A stretch of 46,480 nucleotides of DNA, taken from IMG/VR virus record IMGVR_UViG_3300036781_000198, positions 1-46,480 of that record. One strand, 5' to 3'. Origin of the DNA: a virus. A model generated the notes under the pieces. It was given only the letters and a program-made list of their open reading frames with translations. It searched no databases and was not told the DNA's origin. Both the position numbers and the translations under genes were made by a program. Of the stretch, positions 5,186-41,359 are shown in pieces; the stretch's first letter is position 1, and each line of letters starts with the position of its first letter.

Positions 5186-7399
5186 TTAGAATGGTTTAGG
5201 TGCATCTGGGTCGGCGTCGTAGTTCATTTCAGATTGTCCAGGGCTTGCACCTCTGAGCGCAGCCCAGTAGCCGCGTACCGGTCTGCCGCTTACTTTCTTT
5301 ACGTGCTGAACGAATCCAATTTGTTTTAACGCCTTTGGTATAGCGTACTCATTTATTTTTACTTTGTTGTCTGTCTTCTTTTGCAGCTCCATTAAAAAAT
5401 CTGTGGTGTGCATGAAGTTACCCTGGCCCGCAGCGCAAGGCTTGTAATAGGTTAAGATTAAATTTTTCTCGGTGCTTGACAGCTCGTACATTTTATTGAT
5501 AGCGTCACGCTCGGCGCATTCCTCGGCGCTCAGTGTATAATCGAATCCAGAATGATATAAGGCATAAGCTTGCGCCCAGACATTCTTAATATCAATTTCG
5601 TAAATGTTAGCTTTGTAATTTCCGTAATTGTGATTAATGCTTTTCACGTTAAAGCATACCCAGCGCGTATTTTGATCGTCTGTTAAGAATTCGTCTTTAT
5701 TAGTGGAAGCCCAGAAGTTTACCCGGCGCGGGTTACTCTGGGCGTGGGCGTCGTAGCTGTGGCGTTGCTTAACAATTGACTTTGAAATAATAGCCTTCAG
5801 TTTGTTCACCTCGATATTTGAAAGTGCGGAAAGTTCTTCGAGGTTCCACATAAAATTCTCTGACAGTTGTATATCAGAATCTTTGCCGCCGTCCATTGCC
5901 GCCTCAGTATAGTAGGCTTTGAGTTCAGGCGGGCAAAGGAACCGTATAAAAGAGGTCTTACCTGTTTCCTGGTTCCCGCCTATCATTGTCATTACGATAC
6001 GGTTTTCTTTATGCTCGACTGAGCAGGCTATCGACCTTACGAGCGCTTTTTTAAATTGTATTCGCCAAAATTTTTGATTATCGGTAGTAACATAGTCGGC
6101 GAGCTCGGTTATATGGTCTACGCCATTGTCTGGCCAGGCTGGCAGGCTTTCAAAGTATGAAACGAAGGGGTTGTATTTCGCCACATAGTTAGAGCGCATT
6201 AAGCTTTTTATTTTGTCCAGCGGGAATTTAAACTGGGCGTACTGCAATTCCCTATTAATGGTATCTGAATTTAAATTCTCGTACTTGTCGGTACCCTTTT
6301 CCTTAAATTCCACTTGCTGCGAAACTTCATTTTTTATAATGTCGTAGCGCTTCTTAATGAACAATTCTATTTTATATATTTCCGGTTTGCTATCCAGGTT
6401 CCATTCATCTACCGCGTCACGCTTAACCTTTTCAAAGATACCCCTAACAGCGTCCTTACTTATAAGATGCTCGGCACACATTGAATTTATATCGCCGTCG
6501 TTGTATTTCCTCCCGGAAGAATTGACCTTGTAGGCAAAAGCAAAAATCTTTTTTATGCCCTCGCTGAACTCATCAGGCAGGTCGCTCGTTTTCTTGCTTA
6601 TGGCGAAGGTCCCGAAATCTAAATGATTCTTATAGGCGTAAGTAATTATTTTTGTTACCTCGTCAGTGCCTTTGTCTTCGTTGGTGAAATCAGATAAAAA
6701 TTTACCGGTGGTATATTCCTGACTAACCCCGCACTTGTTCAGGAAGAAAGCAAGGACCATTAAGTAATGGTGCCGGTTACCCTCGATGAAGCTTTCTTTT
6801 TTATTGTGAACATTCAGCACCCAGTTATATTTTTCCTCGTCCCCGTCGATAAGCGCAGAAGGTAGCGTCACGAAGGCGCAATCTGGGTTATGGTATAAGT
6901 CAGGGTCGTAGGATATGTAGCGAGGCCGTGAAACGTCTTTACATGACTTGTCAATTGTCAGGCCGTAGGTGGTAGAATAATATTTTTCAAGAAACAGGAA
7001 GCTTTCTAAATGCTTTAGCGGGTCAATGCTCACCACTACAGCGAGGCCCCTGCCGGTACATGAATGGAAAACGTACTCGGAATATTTATCGCTTGTTAAT
7101 TTCTCCCTGGTTTCCTGTAAATTTTCCAGCTTGTCAAAGTCAATAATAAGCTTCCCAGAATGAACCTTCAGCCCGTCGTTATTCCTTACCGAGAACGTCC
7201 CGGACCCGGCAAAGTACGGCAGCTTCGTCTTTAATGTTTCAATGGCTTTTGGCGTAGCCCCGTCTTTTATTTTTTGCTGTAACGCCTCTATTTTTTCTTT
7301 CCACTTTCCCGCACGTACGCATTCCAATATATCGGCCAGGTCGCAATCTGCGCCGTTCTGCGTTTCCTTAATATGCGGGTACATTGTTACTAAGCTCAT
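5186..7399 (-). CDS. replication primase/helicase (BT4734/VirE N-terminal domain plus virulence-associated-E ATPase)
   Basis: The product is 737 aa. Residues about 60-180 look like the BT4734-like/VirE N-terminal domain: GKLIIDFDKL, then SCTGRGLAVVVSIDP, then DVSRPRYISYDPDLYHNPD. These resemble the catalytic strands of archaeo-eukaryotic-type primases. The C-terminal half is a VirE-type ATPase, with Walker A GGNQETGKTS near residues 468-480 and a Walker B-like FMWNLEEL near 520. This two-domain form is typical of phage and mobile-element replication proteins in Bacteroidota. It is the only replicative primase or initiator candidate here. No DNA polymerase is present, so the host's is presumably used. 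It follows the HNH-like gene and is followed by a membrane micropeptide. Confidence 0.85.
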   Translation of the reverse strand: MSLVTMYPHIKETQNGADCDLADILECVRAGKWKEKIEALQQKIKDGATPKAIETLKTKLPYFAGSGTFSVRNNDGLKVHSGKLIIDFDKLENLQETREKLTSDKYSEYVFHSCTGRGLAVVVSIDPLKHLESFLFLEKYYSTTYGLTIDKSCKDVSRPRYISYDPDLYHNPDCAFVTLPSALIDGDEEKYNWVLNVHNKKESFIEGNRHHYLMVLAFFLNKCGVSQEYTTGKFLSDFTNEDKGTDEVTKIITYAYKNHLDFGTFAISKKTSDLPDEFSEGIKKIFAFAYKVNSSGRKYNDGDINSMCAEHLISKDAVRGIFEKVKRDAVDEWNLDSKPEIYKIELFIKKRYDIIKNEVSQQVEFKEKGTDKYENLNSDTINRELQYAQFKFPLDKIKSLMRSNYVAKYNPFVSYFESLPAWPDNGVDHITELADYVTTDNQKFWRIQFKKALVRSIACSVEHKENRIVMTMIGGNQETGKTSFIRFLCPPELKAYYTEAAMDGGKDSDIQLSENFMWNLEELSALSNIEVNKLKAIISKSIVKQRHSYDAHAQSNPRRVNFWASTNKDEFLTDDQNTRWVCFNVKSINHNYGNYKANIYEIDIKNVWAQAYALYHSGFDYTLSAEECAERDAINKMYELSSTEKNLILTYYKPCAAGQGNFMHTTDFLMELQKKTDNKVKINEYAIPKALKQIGFVQHVKKVSGRPVRGYWAALRGASPGQSEMNYDADPDAPKPF

Positions 7400-7488
7400 C
7401 TATAAAAAAATTTATTTAAACATTTCAAACAAAACCCGGTATAACCCGGTTAAAGTAAAGCCGAAAACTGGCCCTATAAAAAAAATTG

Positions 7489-7923
7489 CTAAAAAGGAAC
7501 CTCTGAATAATCCCGCTTGTGTTTTGCATACTTATATACATTCTCCCGCAGGGTAATTGCTTTTATATTTTTGTAAGTATATCCGTGGTCTTTACAGAAT
7601 GGCGGGCATCCCGGTATACATTCTTTGTCTCGGTCCATTTGCAGCGACTTTGCTGACGTCCCCTTCTTTCTCATATAGTCAGTATTGCCGACAAATCTTT
7701 TAAACTGCGCAAAGGTGAGGTCAAAGTATTTTTTCTTTCTGCGGGCGTTCCTTCTTTTGACTCCGAACGCATATTCTAACGGGTGGTTTTTTATATATAC
7801 TTTCTTGGCGCATGACATACAGATATTTCTTTTATGCCTGCTTTTCTTCATACAAAAAAGAGTTATGCAAATGCCTCTTTTTTTCTTCGCCTTCTGTGTA
7901 TCTGTTAACGTTGCTTTTGACAT
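7489..7923 (-). CDS. zinc-binding HNH-like protein
   Basis: The product is 144 aa from the ATG at 7923; the longer frame would need an ATT start. It has several cysteine pairs (CxxxxxxC near 18-25, CMSC near 35-38, C-x3-CPPFC near 103-110) and is extremely basic. The segment YFDLTFAQFKRFVG followed by LQMDRD and the late ITLRENVYKYAK matches the order seen in phage HNH-type nucleases. The HNH residues themselves are not clear-cut. A nuclease or zinc-ribbon DNA-binding role is likely. It lies between the SF2 helicase and primase genes. Confidence 0.5.
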   Translation of the reverse strand: MSKATLTDTQKAKKKRGICITLFCMKKSRHKRNICMSCAKKVYIKNHPLEYAFGVKRRNARRKKKYFDLTFAQFKRFVGNTDYMRKKGTSAKSLQMDRDKECIPGCPPFCKDHGYTYKNIKAITLRENVYKYAKHKRDYSEVPF

Positions 7924-7953
7924 AGGGGAAATCAATTTAATTAAAAAATGTTG

Positions 7954-9606
7954 TTATGCAAACTGCGCAGGGTCCTTTTTGTATAGTTCTGCGTTTTCCA
8001 GTATTTTAGGCATTAAAATATTTATTTCACTTTGCTTGTGCGACGCCTTTAATTTTTTATAGGCATGTTCTTCTATAACGTTAGCTTCCAGGTGCGAATT
8101 ATCCTTTATGAACGCCCAGATTTCAGCTTTCACCTTGACCCTGTTTTCCTGTGCCTCGGCAAGCTGCCTGCGGGTCCAGCCGTCGGTATATCCTTTTAAC
8201 TTTGCATATTCTTTTATCGCCTCGTCGCCTCGGCTCCATAGCTGACGCACTACCCAGCCCAGCTTATATTCTTTTATCTCCCGGTACTTTTCAAGTTCGG
8301 GTATGGTCATTTTATAGACCTCTTTTTTTAGTTCCTTTGGAATGTTCCCGGACTCGATTAACGTAAACTCACCGGTTAACAATTTCTTTTCTTCCTGAAC
8401 TGCCTTCGTCTGGCCGTGGTTACAGTACTGGCATATCATTGAGGAAACAGGTATCAGCGCCTTGCAATGTTCGCACTCCTTAATAGGGGCTACGCCTATG
8501 GTCCTGGTCACCCTGACAGGGTCCAGGTTCCATTCCCTTTCATCTTCCCACCTTCCGAGCCGCCAGATATTACCGCCCTGGTCAATGCCTATAAAATACT
8601 GCTTACCGATTTCGTCGCAGATTCTGCCGCCCCTTCCCATCATTTGGAGGAAAAGCGTAAGGCTCATTGTGACCCTGTTAATGATTACGCACTCGATAGT
8701 AGGCTCATCGTAGCCGGTGGTAGCTATACCGCAATTGCACAGGACCATGTAGCGCCCGGCGGCGAAGTCTTCAAATATCTTCTTTCTTATCTTCTTTGGG
8801 GTCTTGCCGTCGACGTGAATAGCCGGTATACCCCTACTGTTAAATTCTGCGGTTTGCTTTTTGGAGTGCTTAACGTTGATATTGAAGCATAGGGCCTTTT
8901 TGCCTTTGGCCAGCTTCAGATAATTATCTACCGTCCCGGCGTATAGTCCTGGCTTGTCAAAGACCTTGTATAAGTCACTTTCTTTATAATCGACCCCGAA
9001 GTCCGTTTCAGTTGTTTTAAGGTCACCTGGGTCAAATTCCGGGCCATAGCAGACCGCAGGGACTAGGTAACCTTCCCCAATAAGCTTGGTTATGGTGGTA
9101 GGGGTGACAATTTCTTCATAAATGTCGCATAACTGGCCTGTATAATCGGGGTAATCCTTTAGGAAAGCTTTGCCGGTCCTGTCTGGGGTTGCTGTGCATC
9201 CTATAACGATAGCGCCACGCCTTTTGTATTCTAACGCTATCTCGTCGAAGTCTCTTAAATGGGCTTCGTCAATTATCACGACCTTGACGTCTGGCAGCCT
9301 GCGGTTGACCAGGGTATCAATAGAGGCCAGGTATAAGTTTGAATAATGATCTATGTAGCCCGGAACTATCAGCGTAGGAAAGACCCCGAATTCATTAAGT
9401 TTTTTATTCGCCTGGTCAATCAGCTCGACACGGTTGCAAAGTATAAGGACCGGCCAGCCTGCGGCCAGACAGTCCTTTGTCATGTCTGCGAACATTACGG
9501 TTTTCCCGCCGCCGGTAGGCACGCAAAGAATTACATAATAAATTAACCTCTGAAAGCAGGCAGAAATTAATTGTTTGCCTAAAGCCTGGTAGTCCCGTAG
9601 CGTCAT
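7954..9606 (-). CDS. SF2 DEAH-box helicase with C-terminal zinc ribbon
   Basis: The product is 550 aa. Helicase motifs are in order: Walker A PTGGGKT (30-36), DEAH (113-116), TATP (138-141), and a motif VI of the form QMMGRGGR near 330. After the helicase core, a CEHC...CQYC zinc ribbon lies near 380-400. A charged helical tail follows. This is the SSL2/UvsW-like class, which remodels replication forks and recombination intermediates. The start ATG overlaps the stop of the preceding 48-aa membrane peptide by one base (TAATG). Motif VI has GRGGR where many relatives have GRxxR, so it fits. Confidence 0.9.
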   Translation of the reverse strand: MTLRDYQALGKQLISACFQRLIYYVILCVPTGGGKTVMFADMTKDCLAAGWPVLILCNRVELIDQANKKLNEFGVFPTLIVPGYIDHYSNLYLASIDTLVNRRLPDVKVVIIDEAHLRDFDEIALEYKRRGAIVIGCTATPDRTGKAFLKDYPDYTGQLCDIYEEIVTPTTITKLIGEGYLVPAVCYGPEFDPGDLKTTETDFGVDYKESDLYKVFDKPGLYAGTVDNYLKLAKGKKALCFNINVKHSKKQTAEFNSRGIPAIHVDGKTPKKIRKKIFEDFAAGRYMVLCNCGIATTGYDEPTIECVIINRVTMSLTLFLQMMGRGGRICDEIGKQYFIGIDQGGNIWRLGRWEDEREWNLDPVRVTRTIGVAPIKECEHCKALIPVSSMICQYCNHGQTKAVQEEKKLLTGEFTLIESGNIPKELKKEVYKMTIPELEKYREIKEYKLGWVVRQLWSRGDEAIKEYAKLKGYTDGWTRRQLAEAQENRVKVKAEIWAFIKDNSHLEANVIEEHAYKKLKASHKQSEINILMPKILENAELYKKDPAQFA

Positions 9607-9752
9607 TAATATAACTTTCTCAATTTCTTTTCTGCCTCATCTGCCATTAGGAACGCTACAATTATTAAAAATAACTTAAGGTCGTACCAAAAAAGGCAGG
9701 CAAATACCGGTACAATATAAAGGGCGAACCCCAAAAGTTTATATTTATTCAT
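9606..9752 (-). CDS. 48-aa membrane micropeptide
   Basis: The ORF starts MNKYKLLGFALYIVPVFACL. It has two hydrophobic stretches (about residues 5-21 and 25-36) and a charged helical tail (DEAEKKLRKLY). Its ATG overlaps the stop of the upstream 60-aa gene by one base, and its stop overlaps the helicase start by one base. Translational coupling on both sides makes it a very likely gene. The function is unknown. Confidence 0.7.
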   Translation of the reverse strand: MNKYKLLGFALYIVPVFACLFWYDLKLFLIIVAFLMADEAEKKLRKLY

Positions 9753-13224: not shown

Positions 13225-13252
13225 TATCAAAATATTTTGATAAGCAAATTTA
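13225..13252 (-). promoter_or_regulatory. promoter with palindromic phage operator O2
   Basis: The perfect palindrome TATCAAAATATTTTGATA lies at 13225-13242, 13 bp before the ATG at 13212. The minus-strand flank CTTATC...GATATACTTTT is shared with O1 over 27 bp. On the minus strand, TTTG (plus 13245-13248), a 20-nt spacer filled by the operator, then TACTTTTA makes a Bacteroidota-type promoter with the operator inside the spacer. An alternative -7 element, TAAATTTG, lies at plus 13245-13252, which would put the operator at the start site. Confidence 0.75.
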
Positions 13253-14353: not shown

Positions 14354-15028
14354 TTACGCAGCCTTCATTAACTCATAAAAATTAACCCCTTGCTTTTCGT
14401 ACTCGATAAGCTTGTCCAAAAGGAATTCATATTCGGCCCTGCCTTCTTTAATTAACAGCTCGTCGTAGTTAAACGTATGGGTAAATGTATGGTAAGGATA
14501 TTTTTTAGAAACCCCTATCACAATAAATTTATTTGCCTCTGTAGCGTCCATATAGAAAGCCCCCTGCCTGTGATAGCCATACTTTACTATGCTGGCCTTG
14601 AATTCTTCGTTGCTATTGCAGGAGGTGCTTTTGAGGTCCCCTATCGTTTTGACCAGGTGAATATCTGCCTTCAATTTGCATTGTAGGCCGGTGCGTTCGT
14701 GAATGAAGAAAGTATCTTCCTCTTTTTTCGTCCTTGGGTTGTCAAGCAAGAACTTTAAAAGAAGGTTACCCCTTGCGCTGGCCGCCATGCCCTTTACCTT
14801 ATCTTTATATTCCTGGTAGAACGGCGCATTGATTGACAGTTTATAAGCGTACTTCTCAGGCTCTAACACAGCCTCATGCAGTTGCTTCCCAAATTCTAAG
14901 GTGCTTCGCTTGCACTTCATAAGCGGCGCCCCGTCTACCATGCTCTTAACAAGTCCCAGGCGGGAATTGCTAACCATGTTTAAATCATAATAGTCGATTT
15001 CTGCCTCGGTCATTTTACCTTGAAACAT
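14354..15028 (-). CDS. PD-(D/E)xK exonuclease, RecE/Cas4-like (DUF3799-type)
   Basis: The product is 224 aa. The motif order fits the RecE/Cas4-type nucleases: EFGKQLHEAVLEP with His51, then LKADIHL with Asp122, then IGDLKSTS with Asp131 and Lys133, then a Gln-Tyr-type helix (YHRQGAFYMDA) near 155. Such 5'-3' exonucleases resect double-stranded ends for phage recombination and usually pair with an annealing or SSB protein. It overlaps the upstream coiled-coil gene by 14 bases, and an SSB-like gene lies nearby, giving a plausible recombination module. Confidence 0.85.
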   Translation of the reverse strand: MFQGKMTEAEIDYYDLNMVSNSRLGLVKSMVDGAPLMKCKRSTLEFGKQLHEAVLEPEKYAYKLSINAPFYQEYKDKVKGMAASARGNLLLKFLLDNPRTKKEEDTFFIHERTGLQCKLKADIHLVKTIGDLKSTSCNSNEEFKASIVKYGYHRQGAFYMDATEANKFIVIGVSKKYPYHTFTHTFNYDELLIKEGRAEYEFLLDKLIEYEKQGVNFYELMKAA

Positions 15029-16702: not shown

Positions 16703-17362
16703 TTAGAACGGAACGTCTAGCCTCTTATTGACAGGCGAAGCGTTGCCGGTCGTTGTCGTATTAGTAGGCTGTGTAATCGTACCCTGCGCACTGGCTCCGT
16801 AAAGTTCCTTGTATTCGTCAGAGCTTTTAATGTCGTCCTGAACGAACTTCGCAAGCTTGTTAAACACTTCCGTTTTAAATGGCGGTGTAAATGAGAACAA
16901 GAAAGATTTATTAACCATGTCAGCAATCGGCTCGGTATCGGCCAACTTAATAAGGGCCTGAACTTCCATTCTTTTGTTTCCTGTCTTAGAAGTTACAGCA
17001 ATTAAATTGATTTGCAGGCAGCACCCTAACAGCTTGAAAATGTTAAAGTCTTTTGCTTGCTGGTCCGTAAAGTCGCCGCCTTTCAAGCCGGTCAATAATT
17101 TACGAAGCGTAGCGTTAGCACCCATTGAAACAGTGAATTCCTGTTCGTGAATAAAATTCTTTGGGCCTTCCTCTGGCTTCCAGGTATGCTTCTGGTCAGC
17201 AAGCTCGAAATAAATTCTAACCTTCTTTTGTCTTTTGGTGTGACCCTCGAAGGTCCTGTCTACTGTGCCGATCATTACGACCCCGATAATCCAAGCTTTG
17301 TGCAATCCTGCGGGCGGTAAAACTCTGTTTACGACTTCCCCCTTTAATACTTCCTCTTCCAT
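16703..17362 (-). CDS. SSB-like single-strand DNA-binding protein
   Basis: The product is 219 aa from the ATG at 17362 (MEEEVLKGEVVNRV). The upstream extension would need a TTG start. A beta-rich core (about residues 10-150) contains KKVRIYFELADQ and NATLRKLLTGLKGG. A Thr/Asn-rich linker follows, and the protein ends in LDVPF. That ending resembles the acidic SSB C-terminal peptide that recruits partner proteins, with bulk Pro-Phe last. Phage proteins of this type coat single-stranded DNA. It lies between the Cys-repeat gene and the exonuclease module. The assignment rests on overall pattern and C-terminus. Confidence 0.6.
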   Translation of the reverse strand: MEEEVLKGEVVNRVLPPAGLHKAWIIGVVMIGTVDRTFEGHTKRQKKVRIYFELADQKHTWKPEEGPKNFIHEQEFTVSMGANATLRKLLTGLKGGDFTDQQAKDFNIFKLLGCCLQINLIAVTSKTGNKRMEVQALIKLADTEPIADMVNKSFLFSFTPPFKTEVFNKLAKFVQDDIKSSDEYKELYGASAQGTITQPTNTTTTGNASPVNKRLDVPF

Positions 17363-17402
17363 AATTATAAAATGCAATGCGCTGCATTAGGCGTTTAGTT
17401 AA

Positions 17403-18395
17403 CTATTTACTTGCTGTTAAAATTTCAGCGTCTGCGCAGGCTTTCATTTCTGCTAATGCTTCAGTATTTCCTAAGAAAAAAGAACAAGGCGAAACCCTTA
17501 TTTCGGGAGACGACTTCTTATATATCTGCATTGCGGCGAATAAGGTAGAAGTTTTTTCAGCCAGTATTCTACCTTGTTCACCTGCCAGGAATTCAACCCA
17601 CCCGGCCCGGCAGTGCGTAGTATCGCAGGTGTGCCATTTAGACATATCCAAACTATTAGGACCGGAAGCGGCAGCCAATACCTTTTGATGAATATTTTCA
17701 ATAATTGGTATCTCAGGGAAACCATTTTCCTCTTTATTTTCTTTTTCGGTTTTGAAAACCATTGAGCTGCAATCGCTGCAATCGCTGCAATCGCTGCAAT
17801 CGCTGCAATCGCTGCAAGAGCTGCAAGAGCTGCAAGAGCTGCAAGAGCTGCAATCGCTGCAAGAGCTGCAAGAGCTGCAAGAGCTGCAATCGCTGCAAGA
17901 GCTGCAAGAGCTGCAATCGCTGCAATCGCTGCAAGAGCTGCAATCGCTGCAAGAGCTGCAATCGCGGCAATAGCTGCAAGAGCTGCAATCGCTGCAAGAG
18001 CTGCAATAGCTGCAATAGCGGCAATAGCTGCAATAGCGGCAAGAGCGGCAAGAGCTGCAAGAGCTGCAATCGCGGCAATAGCTGCAATCGCTGCAAGAGC
18101 TGCAATCGCTGCAAGAGCTGCAATCGCTGCAAGAGCTGCAATAGCTGCAATAGCGGCAATAGCTGCAATAGCTGCAATCGCGGCAATAGCTGCAATCGCT
18201 GCAATCGCTGCAATCGCTGCAATCGCTGCAAGAGCTGCAAGAGCGGCAAGAGCGGCAATTCCATGAACCTTTGTTCGTTTCATTGTCGTTCTCATAATTG
18301 GGATTTTGTTTAGCGAATGCGGGGCTTACCCCATTTATTTGCTTATCGGTTCGATTAACGAACTCAGAATAATCTTTAAATATAAGTGTTTTCAT
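17403..18395 (-). CDS. cysteine tripeptide-repeat protein
   Basis: The product is 330 aa in three parts. Residues 1-45 are an ordinary N-terminal domain (MKTLIFKDYSEFVNRTDKQ). Residues about 46-210 consist of about 55 consecutive tripeptides of the form (S/D/Y)-C-(S/R), so every third residue is Cys. The C-terminal about 115 residues form a folded domain with WHTCDTTHCRAGWVEFLAG, which I recall from uncharacterised phage proteins (not checked). Fifty-five phased cysteines could ligate a metal chain, form a cross-linked three-residue helix, or bind a thiol-reactive target. The gene is the first one downstream of the double operator at 18430-18463. All three minus-strand frames are open through the repeat, but only this one has flanking domains. 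Confidence 0.85.
   Translation of the reverse strand: MKTLIFKDYSEFVNRTDKQINGVSPAFAKQNPNYENDNETNKGSWNCRSCRSCSSCSDCSDCSDCSDCSYCRDCSYCSYCRYCSYCSSCSDCSSCSDCSSCSDCSYCRDCSSCSSCRSCRYCSYCRYCSYCSSCSDCSSCSYCRDCSSCSDCSSCSDCSDCSSCSSCSDCSSCSSCSSCSDCSSCSSCSSCSSCSDCSDCSDCSDCSDCSSMVFKTEKENKEENGFPEIPIIENIHQKVLAAASGPNSLDMSKWHTCDTTHCRAGWVEFLAGEQGRILAEKTSTLFAAMQIYKKSSPEIRVSPCSFFLGNTEALAEMKACADAEILTASK
17766..18260 (-). repeat. 9-bp tandem repeat, about 55 units, inside the cysteine-repeat gene
   Basis: On the minus strand each unit is (GAT/TCT/TAT)-TGC-(AGC/CGC). The Cys codon is always TGC. The first codon chooses Asp, Ser or Tyr, and the third Ser or Arg. Arg units almost always follow Tyr or Ser. Such a repeat should gain and lose units by slippage without changing frame, so repeat number may vary between isolates. 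It is not a CRISPR array because it has no spacers. Confidence 0.95.
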
Positions 18396-18421: not shown

Positions 18422-18463
18422 CAAAAGTATATCAAAAAATTTTGTTATCAAAATATTTTGATA
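18422..18463 (-). promoter_or_regulatory. promoter with tandem phage operators O3a and O3b
   Basis: O3b at 18446-18463 is the perfect palindrome TATCAAAATATTTTGATA. O3a at 18430-18447 is the variant TATCAAAAAATTTTGTTA, 16 bp away centre to centre. On the minus strand, TTTG in O3b (plus 18449-18452) is followed after exactly 19 nt by TACTTTTG (plus 18422-18429), a textbook Bacteroidota promoter. O3a fills the spacer exactly. It sits between the HTH gene's stop and the Cys-repeat gene, and should drive the early operon from 18395 to 13266. Confidence 0.8.
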
Positions 18464-18469
18464 ATTATT

Positions 18470-18715
18470 TTAAGCAATCTTTTCCACACTGATATTTTCA
18501 GCTATATAAACCTTAACCCTTTGTACCAGGCTGGCCGTAACATAGTCAGGGTCGCCACTCATAAATTTACTTAACGTCCTTTGGGAAGTGCCTATCCTTT
18601 CAGCGTGAACGCCTTGCTTAATTCCTGTTTCCTGTAAAATAGCTGATTGCTTCGCAGCCTCTTTTAGTAAGTTCTTTTTATCCTTTTCCCTTTGTGTTTG
18701 AATTTTTTGTTTCAT
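18470..18715 (-). CDS. HTH regulator, candidate phage repressor
   Basis: The product is 81 aa. Residues about 38-65 (HAERIGTSQRTLSKFMSGD) form a Cro/C1-type helix-turn-helix. The N-terminal 30 residues are Lys/Gln-rich and helical. It is too short for a CI-like protein with an oligomerisation domain and closer in size to Cro. It lies between operator O4 upstream and the double operator O3 immediately downstream of its stop. That makes it the natural candidate for the protein that reads the TATCAAAATATTTTGATA sites, and it is probably autoregulated. The binding itself is inference. Confidence 0.7.
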   Translation of the reverse strand: MKQKIQTQREKDKKNLLKEAAKQSAILQETGIKQGVHAERIGTSQRTLSKFMSGDPDYVTASLVQRVKVYIAENISVEKIA

Positions 18716-18915: not shown

Positions 18916-18939
18916 CAAACCTATCAAAAATATTTGATA
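18916..18939 (-). promoter_or_regulatory. phage operator O4 with overlapping promoter element
   Basis: TATCAAAAATATTTGATA at 18922-18939 is a variant of the operator palindrome. On the minus strand TAGGTTTG (plus 18916-18923) directly follows, matching TAnnTTTG. TATTTTTG within the operator is another match. It lies 13 bp before the ATG at 18909 and right after the lysis terminator, so it should control the small gene and the HTH gene. Confidence 0.65.
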
Positions 18940-41341: not shown

Positions 41342-41359
41342 TATCAAAAAATTTTGATA
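41342..41359 (-). promoter_or_regulatory. phage operator O5 upstream of the capsid gene
   Basis: TATCAAAAAATTTTGATA is a variant of the phage operator palindrome, 14 bp before the capsid ATG at 41328. On the minus strand it is followed by AACTATTTTTA, where TATTTTTA is close to TAnnTTTG. So the operator again lies just upstream of a -7-like element. It suggests that the capsid gene has its own repressible promoter within the head operon. Confidence 0.6.

Follow-up and report, generated by a model that had tools for sequence, protein, structure and literature searches.

We identified in phages a gene whose product joins an N-terminal cap, a long array of Cys-x-x triplets and a C-terminal helical domain. 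The array is exchanged for other repeat rods among relatives and is hypervariable in units of nine bases. The example analyzed here lies in a 46,480-base virus record, the whole of which is referred to as the window. Sequence comparison suggests that the Cys-triplet protein is one of the repeat-rod proteins of phages. The explanation that we propose, and in which we place about even confidence, is that an early phage protein consisting of a cap, an interchangeable Cys-solenoid rod and a helical domain presents a fast-changing binding surface. A full-text search of open papers, part of which were opened, returned no description of the protein by title or abstract; PMC7379824 is unrelated.

The Cys-triplet gene and its reading frame

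The gene is located at 17,403–18,395 on the minus strand and consists of an ORF of 330 aa with an ATG start, supported by PHROG matches and by relatives. Residues 1–46 (18,258–18,395, minus strand) form the N-terminal cap, which belongs to type A of the two cap types found among the relatives and whose residues T3, F12, R15, N21, G22, F27 and N41 are invariant in an alignment of 25 sequences (A3). Residues 47–211 (17,763–18,257, minus strand) are 55 uninterrupted triplets, 165 aa with Cys at every third residue. The C-terminal helical domain (the C-domain; 17,406–17,729, minus strand) was defined by an alignment of 68 sequences (A1) and by AlphaFold. The initial annotation, which described about 55 Cys triplets between two ordinary domains, was thus exact. 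The protein contains 59 Cys in total. Within the array the position after Cys is Ser (46) or Arg (9), and the second position after Cys is Ser (23), Asp (21) or Tyr (11). The underlying DNA has a 9-base period in 55 copies (TRF) with the unit TGC-(AGC or CGC)-(TCT, GAT or TAT). The last unit ends in TCA, the only silent change among the 55.

Relatives were found by tblastn in Flavobacterium phage FL-1 and in Vibrio phage 1.238, where the protein carries the annotation 'insect antifreeze protein'. IMG/VR was scanned as well and contributed 155 candidate relatives, of which 80 were retained. Arrays could be read in 81 loci, among them the window and both named phages, but not in L067 and one further locus. 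The frame read for L027 is of low complexity, and this locus is excluded from later array counts. Arrays in these loci range from 9 to 59 triplets. Ser dominates the position after Cys (1956 occurrences), the third position is most often Asp (1155), Gly (635) or Arg (431), and aromatic residues are also present between the Cys. The C-domain is absent from some members (L004, L082 and L083).

Other reading frames are also open across the repeat, and the initial annotation had allowed that one of them might be the expressed frame. However, N- and C-terminal domains that match relatives occur only in the Cys frame. Across the 81 loci, 2528 of the 2535 in-phase positions hold Cys (TGC 2194, TGT 334; counted on the best tract per locus with ends trimmed by scoring), whereas all six Ser codons are in use. 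Since the flanking domains match relatives and Cys is kept while Ser codons vary, the Cys frame is real, and the array is neither a product of chance nor a stray frame. A plus-strand ORF opposite the repeat (17,762–18,313) is open as well, with Cys at most third positions, and is a by-product of the TGC-AGC unit.

The window protein matches phrog_31265 (E 2.4e-26) over residues 227–327, which is the C-domain only. A second match, to phrog_15341 (E 4e-16, residues 119–221), covers low-complexity repeat and so says little beyond the pattern itself. No Pfam family was matched at E ≤ 1, so there is no match to the pentapeptide family PF00805 or to a metallothionein family, and NCBIfam likewise gave no match.

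Several further features of individual loci were observed. In FL-1 (L003, 4001–4817) the Cys gene is split into two CDS, and the frame breaks within the C-domain, either through sequencing error or through decay. Cys-triplet paralogues, tandem or dispersed, occur within one phage in L229 (four, 4051–9687), L267 (2–1615), L011 (3972–5765), L228 and L250. A census by DNA pattern gave at least 120 stretches, many of them low-complexity frames; 80 were examined (L216–L295), and only loci with recognizable flanking domains were used. Viral contigs also contain short ORFs of 11–15 Cys-Ser-Gly triplets, several with similar flanks (L220, L238, L240, L259, L278 and L286); these may represent a different repeat gene read in another frame.

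Distribution of the C-domain

The C-domain contains four invariant residues, His33, Cys35, His39 and Cys40 (A1 numbering), that form an HxCxxxHC motif in all 68 sequences. A total of 70 sequences were extracted for this alignment; L001 is represented by the window sequence, while L027 and L081 are omitted. The domain occurs at 34 loci in genomes that range from Bacteroidota to Planctomycetes. The domain is also present in 414 of 417 IMG/VR pattern matches, and the 80 viral loci kept are a biased set, ranked by likeness to the C-domain of the window. In sampled genomes of two classes the domain was found in 2 of 395 and 1 of 385, all three already known carriers, and the gene is therefore not a housekeeping gene.

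Chromosomal copies were examined at five of the 34 genome loci (77 ORFs). Among the first 25 of 101 families, the neighbors of these copies include integrases, repressors, anti-repressors, NinB, NinG and DnaB, which indicates that these copies are prophage. The Cys-triplet gene, with its phrog_15341 and phrog_31265 matches, belongs to phages and prophages. A Bordetella plasmid carries a pentapeptide member of the C-domain family.

Exchange of rods on common end domains

A script-based classification of the rods attached to the C-domain at the 34 genome loci gave 15 Cys arrays, 14 pentapeptide rods and five others. Two of the five are cut by contig ends (L091 and L107), L108 is a pentapeptide protein according to Pfam (E 2.4e-20) and raises that class to 15 of 34, L104 has an LRR-like repeat and is also cut, and L118 is Ala-rich. 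At the 80 viral loci the corresponding numbers are 73 Cys arrays, four pentapeptide rods and three others, namely a very short Cys array (L141) and two loci that are cut (L184 and L192). PF00805 scored above its cut-off in all six pentapeptide members run against Pfam, and in such members the phrog_31265 match reaches over the repeat (L102, profile 74–252). Comparison of the homologues, proposed with the initial annotation, thus gave a divided result: many keep Cys arrays, but the pentapeptide relatives (14/34 genome and 4/80 viral loci) do not.

A second C-domain (phrog_20532/phrog_7964) shows a similar range of partners. L270 and L291 combine it with Cys triplets (phrog_20532 E 1.7e-11 and 6.2e-17), and L078 combines it with YdcK-type repeats (phrog_20532 E 1.2e-19; PF18836 E 1.3e-10). 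By tblastn and reading of the translations, YdcK-type repeats also accompany it in gp34 of Ruminococcus phage phiRM10 and in Paenibacillus phage Pd_22F, and gp3 of EBPR siphovirus 1 has it with pentapeptides. The direct pairwise match between L291 and L078 is weak (E 2e-4, a single comparison), and the two are linked by their common PHROG profile instead. In L078 a gene of this YdcK type lies immediately upstream of the Cys gene. In L072 a YdcK-type solenoid gene lies directly downstream of the Cys gene (about 5752–6977); its cluster has 11 members in five loci, and L072–L074 carry the same protein.

Two unrelated end domains are thus each found on Cys-triplet arrays as well as on established beta-solenoid repeats, and it is mainly for this reason that we interpret the array as an exchangeable solenoid rod. 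Phages attach pentapeptide, YdcK-type and Cys-triplet rods interchangeably to the same end domains. Such exchange does not prove a beta-solenoid, given that L104 has an LRR-like repeat and that in L118 (7617–8234) the C-domain is joined to a helical-looking, Ala-rich Trp/Arg/Asp repeat, another rod type. Pentapeptide proteins (PF00805, including Qnr and MfpA) resemble the Cys-triplet proteins in having a repeat rod and, in phage members, the same C-domain, as well as few unit types, variable exposed residues and nearly fixed silent sites. However, their unit has five residues with a central Leu, while the Cys array has a unit of three, a near-invariant Cys and no Pfam match. The YdcK-type phage proteins (PF18836) have the second C-domain in common with Cys-triplet proteins but contain another repeat and no Cys array.

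These relatives bear on the idea that the protein is a metal or thiol buffer, in which CxxC units would bind Zn, Cu(I), Cd or Fe-S clusters, or would absorb oxidants early in infection. The near-absolute conservation of Cys, with flanking residues that vary freely, and the invariant HxCxxxHC of the C-domain are consistent with such a role. Cys is in fact kept far more strictly than a generic solenoid core needs, which favors thiol or metal chemistry, and chemistry of this kind in the array core is possible. However, the same C-domain is found on pentapeptide rods without a Cys array, aromatics occupy outward positions, and Cys numbers do not favor multiples of two or four (73 even, 68 odd). 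The window encodes a phage PAPS reductase (3,760–4,503; phrog_424 E 2.1e-37), which was considered as a linked sulfur supply and rejected: the enzyme is no more common in phage records with the Cys gene (2/22) than in those without (2/20). A metal-binding rod or thiol sink, as suggested in the initial annotation, is not borne out as the common function of the family, and the relatives without any Cys array weaken a metal or thiol role generally. We consider the buffer a tentative and rather unlikely alternative.

Fold of the array

AlphaFold was run on the full-length protein with a 30-row alignment and separately on the array alone. The ends folded: pLDDT was 77–89 in blocks 1–40 of the cap and 93–98 over most of residues 231–330 of the C-domain, which is all helix, with one block of ten at 62. 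The structure prediction proposed in the initial annotation produced no fold for the array, with pLDDT of 26–42 in the full model, below 50 over residues 49–220, and a mean of 41 for the array alone. Foldseek against the PDB gave nothing at E ≤ 0.001, the best VIA-align Z was 2.7 (on the C-domain), and a single match, at E 0.56, came from a PDB profile search with the C-domain; a missing entry for this protein among listed folds is not evidence of a new fold. The single BFVD match at E ≤ 0.001 is A0A1P8VWG3, an unnamed protein of 74 aa that is 55% identical over 69 columns.

The initial annotation described the residues between the Cys as ordered rather than random. This description holds for the small number of unit types (six in the window array), but not for a higher period. 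Raw lag signals of the arrays are strongest at 3 and 7 triplets, and once local duplicate units are excluded the lag tests show no superperiod, including none of four triplets. Pentapeptide repeats have four units per turn, and the pentapeptide control was equally flat, so that the tests are blind to four-sidedness.

The array shares a 3-residue rule for Cys with the Tenebrio-type antifreeze proteins. A phmmer search placed PDB entry 1ezg in register with the array, a weak match of E 0.0081 with a bias of 37 that reflects composition. In 1ezg, however, Cys is mostly at every sixth position, while the phage array has Cys at every third, and no 12-residue period was seen in it with the same lag tests. 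The T-C-T motif is the ice-binding face of the Tenebrio-type proteins, and this face is missing here; the window array contains no Thr. By analogy with the Tenebrio protein, the Cys side chains probably point inward. The array would then be a beta-solenoid-type rod in which each triplet turns its Cys inward and two residues outward, and the Ser/Arg and Ser/Asp/Tyr positions would form a long patterned outer surface.

The same likeness allows a rod locked by disulfides, with Cys paired as in the insect protein. The Cys spacing is compatible with that protein, and the annotation of the Vibrio phage relative points the same way. However, odd and even Cys counts are about equal, and the bacterial cytoplasm is reducing. 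We regard a disulfide-locked rod as quite improbable.

Hypervariability of the array

Two pairs of loci differ chiefly within the array. The IMG/VR contigs L018 and L019 can be aligned over 10,756 bases, and their only differences, a single mismatch and a 27-base gap, fall within the array and amount to three triplets and one Asp/Gly switch. L010 and L167, with arrays of 50 and 30 triplets, have 9 mismatches in about 3677 bases outside the array vs 29 in 264 aligned array bases. In L026 and L069 the triplets are shuffled, and the wider DNA is also diverged (98.2% over 2.1 kb).

Variation within arrays was examined in 141 distinct arrays (3950 triplets) picked by recognizable flanking motifs. 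Silent codon differences are absent in 50 of the 141, whereas about half of the unit pairs differ at exposed residues. After two units were trimmed from each end, 135 arrays remained, of which 130 have pN greater than pS and 92 have a pS of zero (median pN 0.255, median pS 0); in the C-domain control the median pN/pS is 0.555 (48 pairs). Mutational steps were counted in 103 distinct unit sets between those unit types that occur two or more times; 35 of the steps are silent and 351 replace a residue, against an expected silent share of 0.273. With all units counted, 96 of 787 are silent. Because the arrays are related, p-values should not be read at face value. The pattern in pentapeptide arrays is alike (20 arrays, median silent difference 0, exposed 0.465).

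Wobble bases are near-uniform inside an array and different between arrays. This suggests that each array was recently re-expanded, with exposed residues kept or made diverse. Selection for diversity or mutation focused on exposed positions would each explain the pattern, and the low silent variation could stem in part from recent array expansion and local mutation bias. In the explanation that we propose, the arrays lengthen, shorten and reshuffle rapidly in 9-base units, with change concentrated on outward residues.

The array might instead be a selfish or neutral minisatellite without a role in a dispensable gene. The wide range of array lengths and the instability seen between L018 and L019 fit this idea. 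However, Cys is strictly kept, replacement changes are far above silent ones, and the gene is retained in distant phages; we find a minisatellite very doubtful.

Two further possibilities are that the array is the target of a diversity-generating retroelement, as its directed-looking variation might suggest, or a thiazole/oxazole precursor of the heterocycloanthracin type. No reverse transcriptase is present in any of 17 virus records, which may be fragments. Cys-Xaa-Xaa repeats are known in such precursors, and the heterocycloanthracin precursors (TIGR03601; PMC2674419) resemble the phage array in their tandem Cys-Xaa-Xaa units and in-frame length variation. However, they are short bacterial peptides with maturation enzymes, and none was matched for the window protein: YcaO (PF02624) has no match in the window, though maturation genes may sit elsewhere in the host, and the Cys-triplet protein has no counterpart in NCBIfam. 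Moreover, the array lies in the middle of a large protein rather than at the end of a short one. Both readings are largely refuted and appear extremely improbable.

Genomic context and regulation

The Cys gene is located among genes of replication and recombination. The next gene downstream encodes a replication initiation protein of the NGO0469 family (16,703–17,377, minus strand; NCBIfam NF046043 E 5.4e-35) and is followed by exonuclease-like genes, helicases and a primase-like protein. The same region includes an exonuclease VIII-like PD-(D/E)XK protein (14,354–15,028, minus strand; PF12684 E 3e-12, phrog_412 E 1.3e-27). Just upstream of the Cys gene are two adjacent operator-like palindromes (18,430–18,463). 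With up to 3 mismatches allowed, the window contains six copies of the palindrome, TATCAAAATATTTTGATA, where 0.08 are expected; in addition to these two, the sites are 5,010–5,027, 13,225–13,242, 18,922–18,939 and 41,342–41,359. A small HTH protein at 18,470–18,715 (minus strand) is a candidate regulator (HTH_3 E 0.0034, short of the Pfam cut-off; PHROG transcription regulator E 4.4e-4). One TATCAAAATATTTTGATA copy overlies a promoter-like site upstream of the HTH gene.

The initial annotation placed the Cys gene first in an early operon under a double operator. The two palindromes and the position among replication and recombination genes agree with this, but on the same strand the HTH gene precedes the Cys gene. 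That the Cys gene is the first of an operon is plausible, and its position together with the operator-like sites suggests an early gene. No conserved gene cluster was found beyond the Cys gene in more than six of the loci compared. Among 105 proteins encoded next to the Cys gene in relatives, all named functions in the first 25 of 84 families are in DNA metabolism; the 20 Pfam families listed for these proteins also include one glycosyltransferase, ProQ, HTH and YdcK.

A further possibility is that the protein is a DNA mimic, like the pentapeptide proteins MfpA or Qnr, acting on gyrase or on a DNA-binding defense or repair enzyme. MfpA is described as a DNA mimic in PMC10886550. The exchange with pentapeptide rods, the neighboring families and the similar net charge per residue (−0.062 in 141 Cys arrays vs −0.057 in 21 pentapeptide arrays) are in keeping with mimicry. 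However, the charge is only mild, and some arrays are net positive (95th percentile +0.032). We judge a DNA mimic unlikely. By analogy with MfpA (PMC10886550), DNA-handling enzymes are our guess as the most likely targets.

Implications for phage biology

The proposed protein would be built of a cap, a repeat rod and a C-terminal helical domain, and its surface would bind, or have to avoid, a changing host or rival factor early in infection. The role against host defense raised in the initial annotation is hypothetical. A more specific hypothesis, which we advance with considerable doubt, is that these proteins are hypervariable phage rods. Each would be a minimal Cys-cored solenoid that shuffles 9-base units without a reverse transcriptase and turns a changing Ser/Asp/Arg/Gly/aromatic surface toward a host target, with replacement changes selected and the rest of the unit uniform.

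If this is true, the hypervariable Cys-cored rod would represent a new fold class, with a 3-residue unit and an all-Cys core, and a new engine of diversity in phages. If the explanation proposed above is right, the smallest possible solenoid unit, with one inward residue per triplet, would be widespread in phages. That this unit can be swapped for pentapeptide or YdcK rods without a change of end domain would in turn point to a common, undescribed job of orphan phage proteins. The Cys array would also be an inexpensive model in which to test thiol-cored protein rods. Given the contrast between silent and replacement changes, the array may be regarded as a natural library, and comparison of sister phages could reveal the binding partner.
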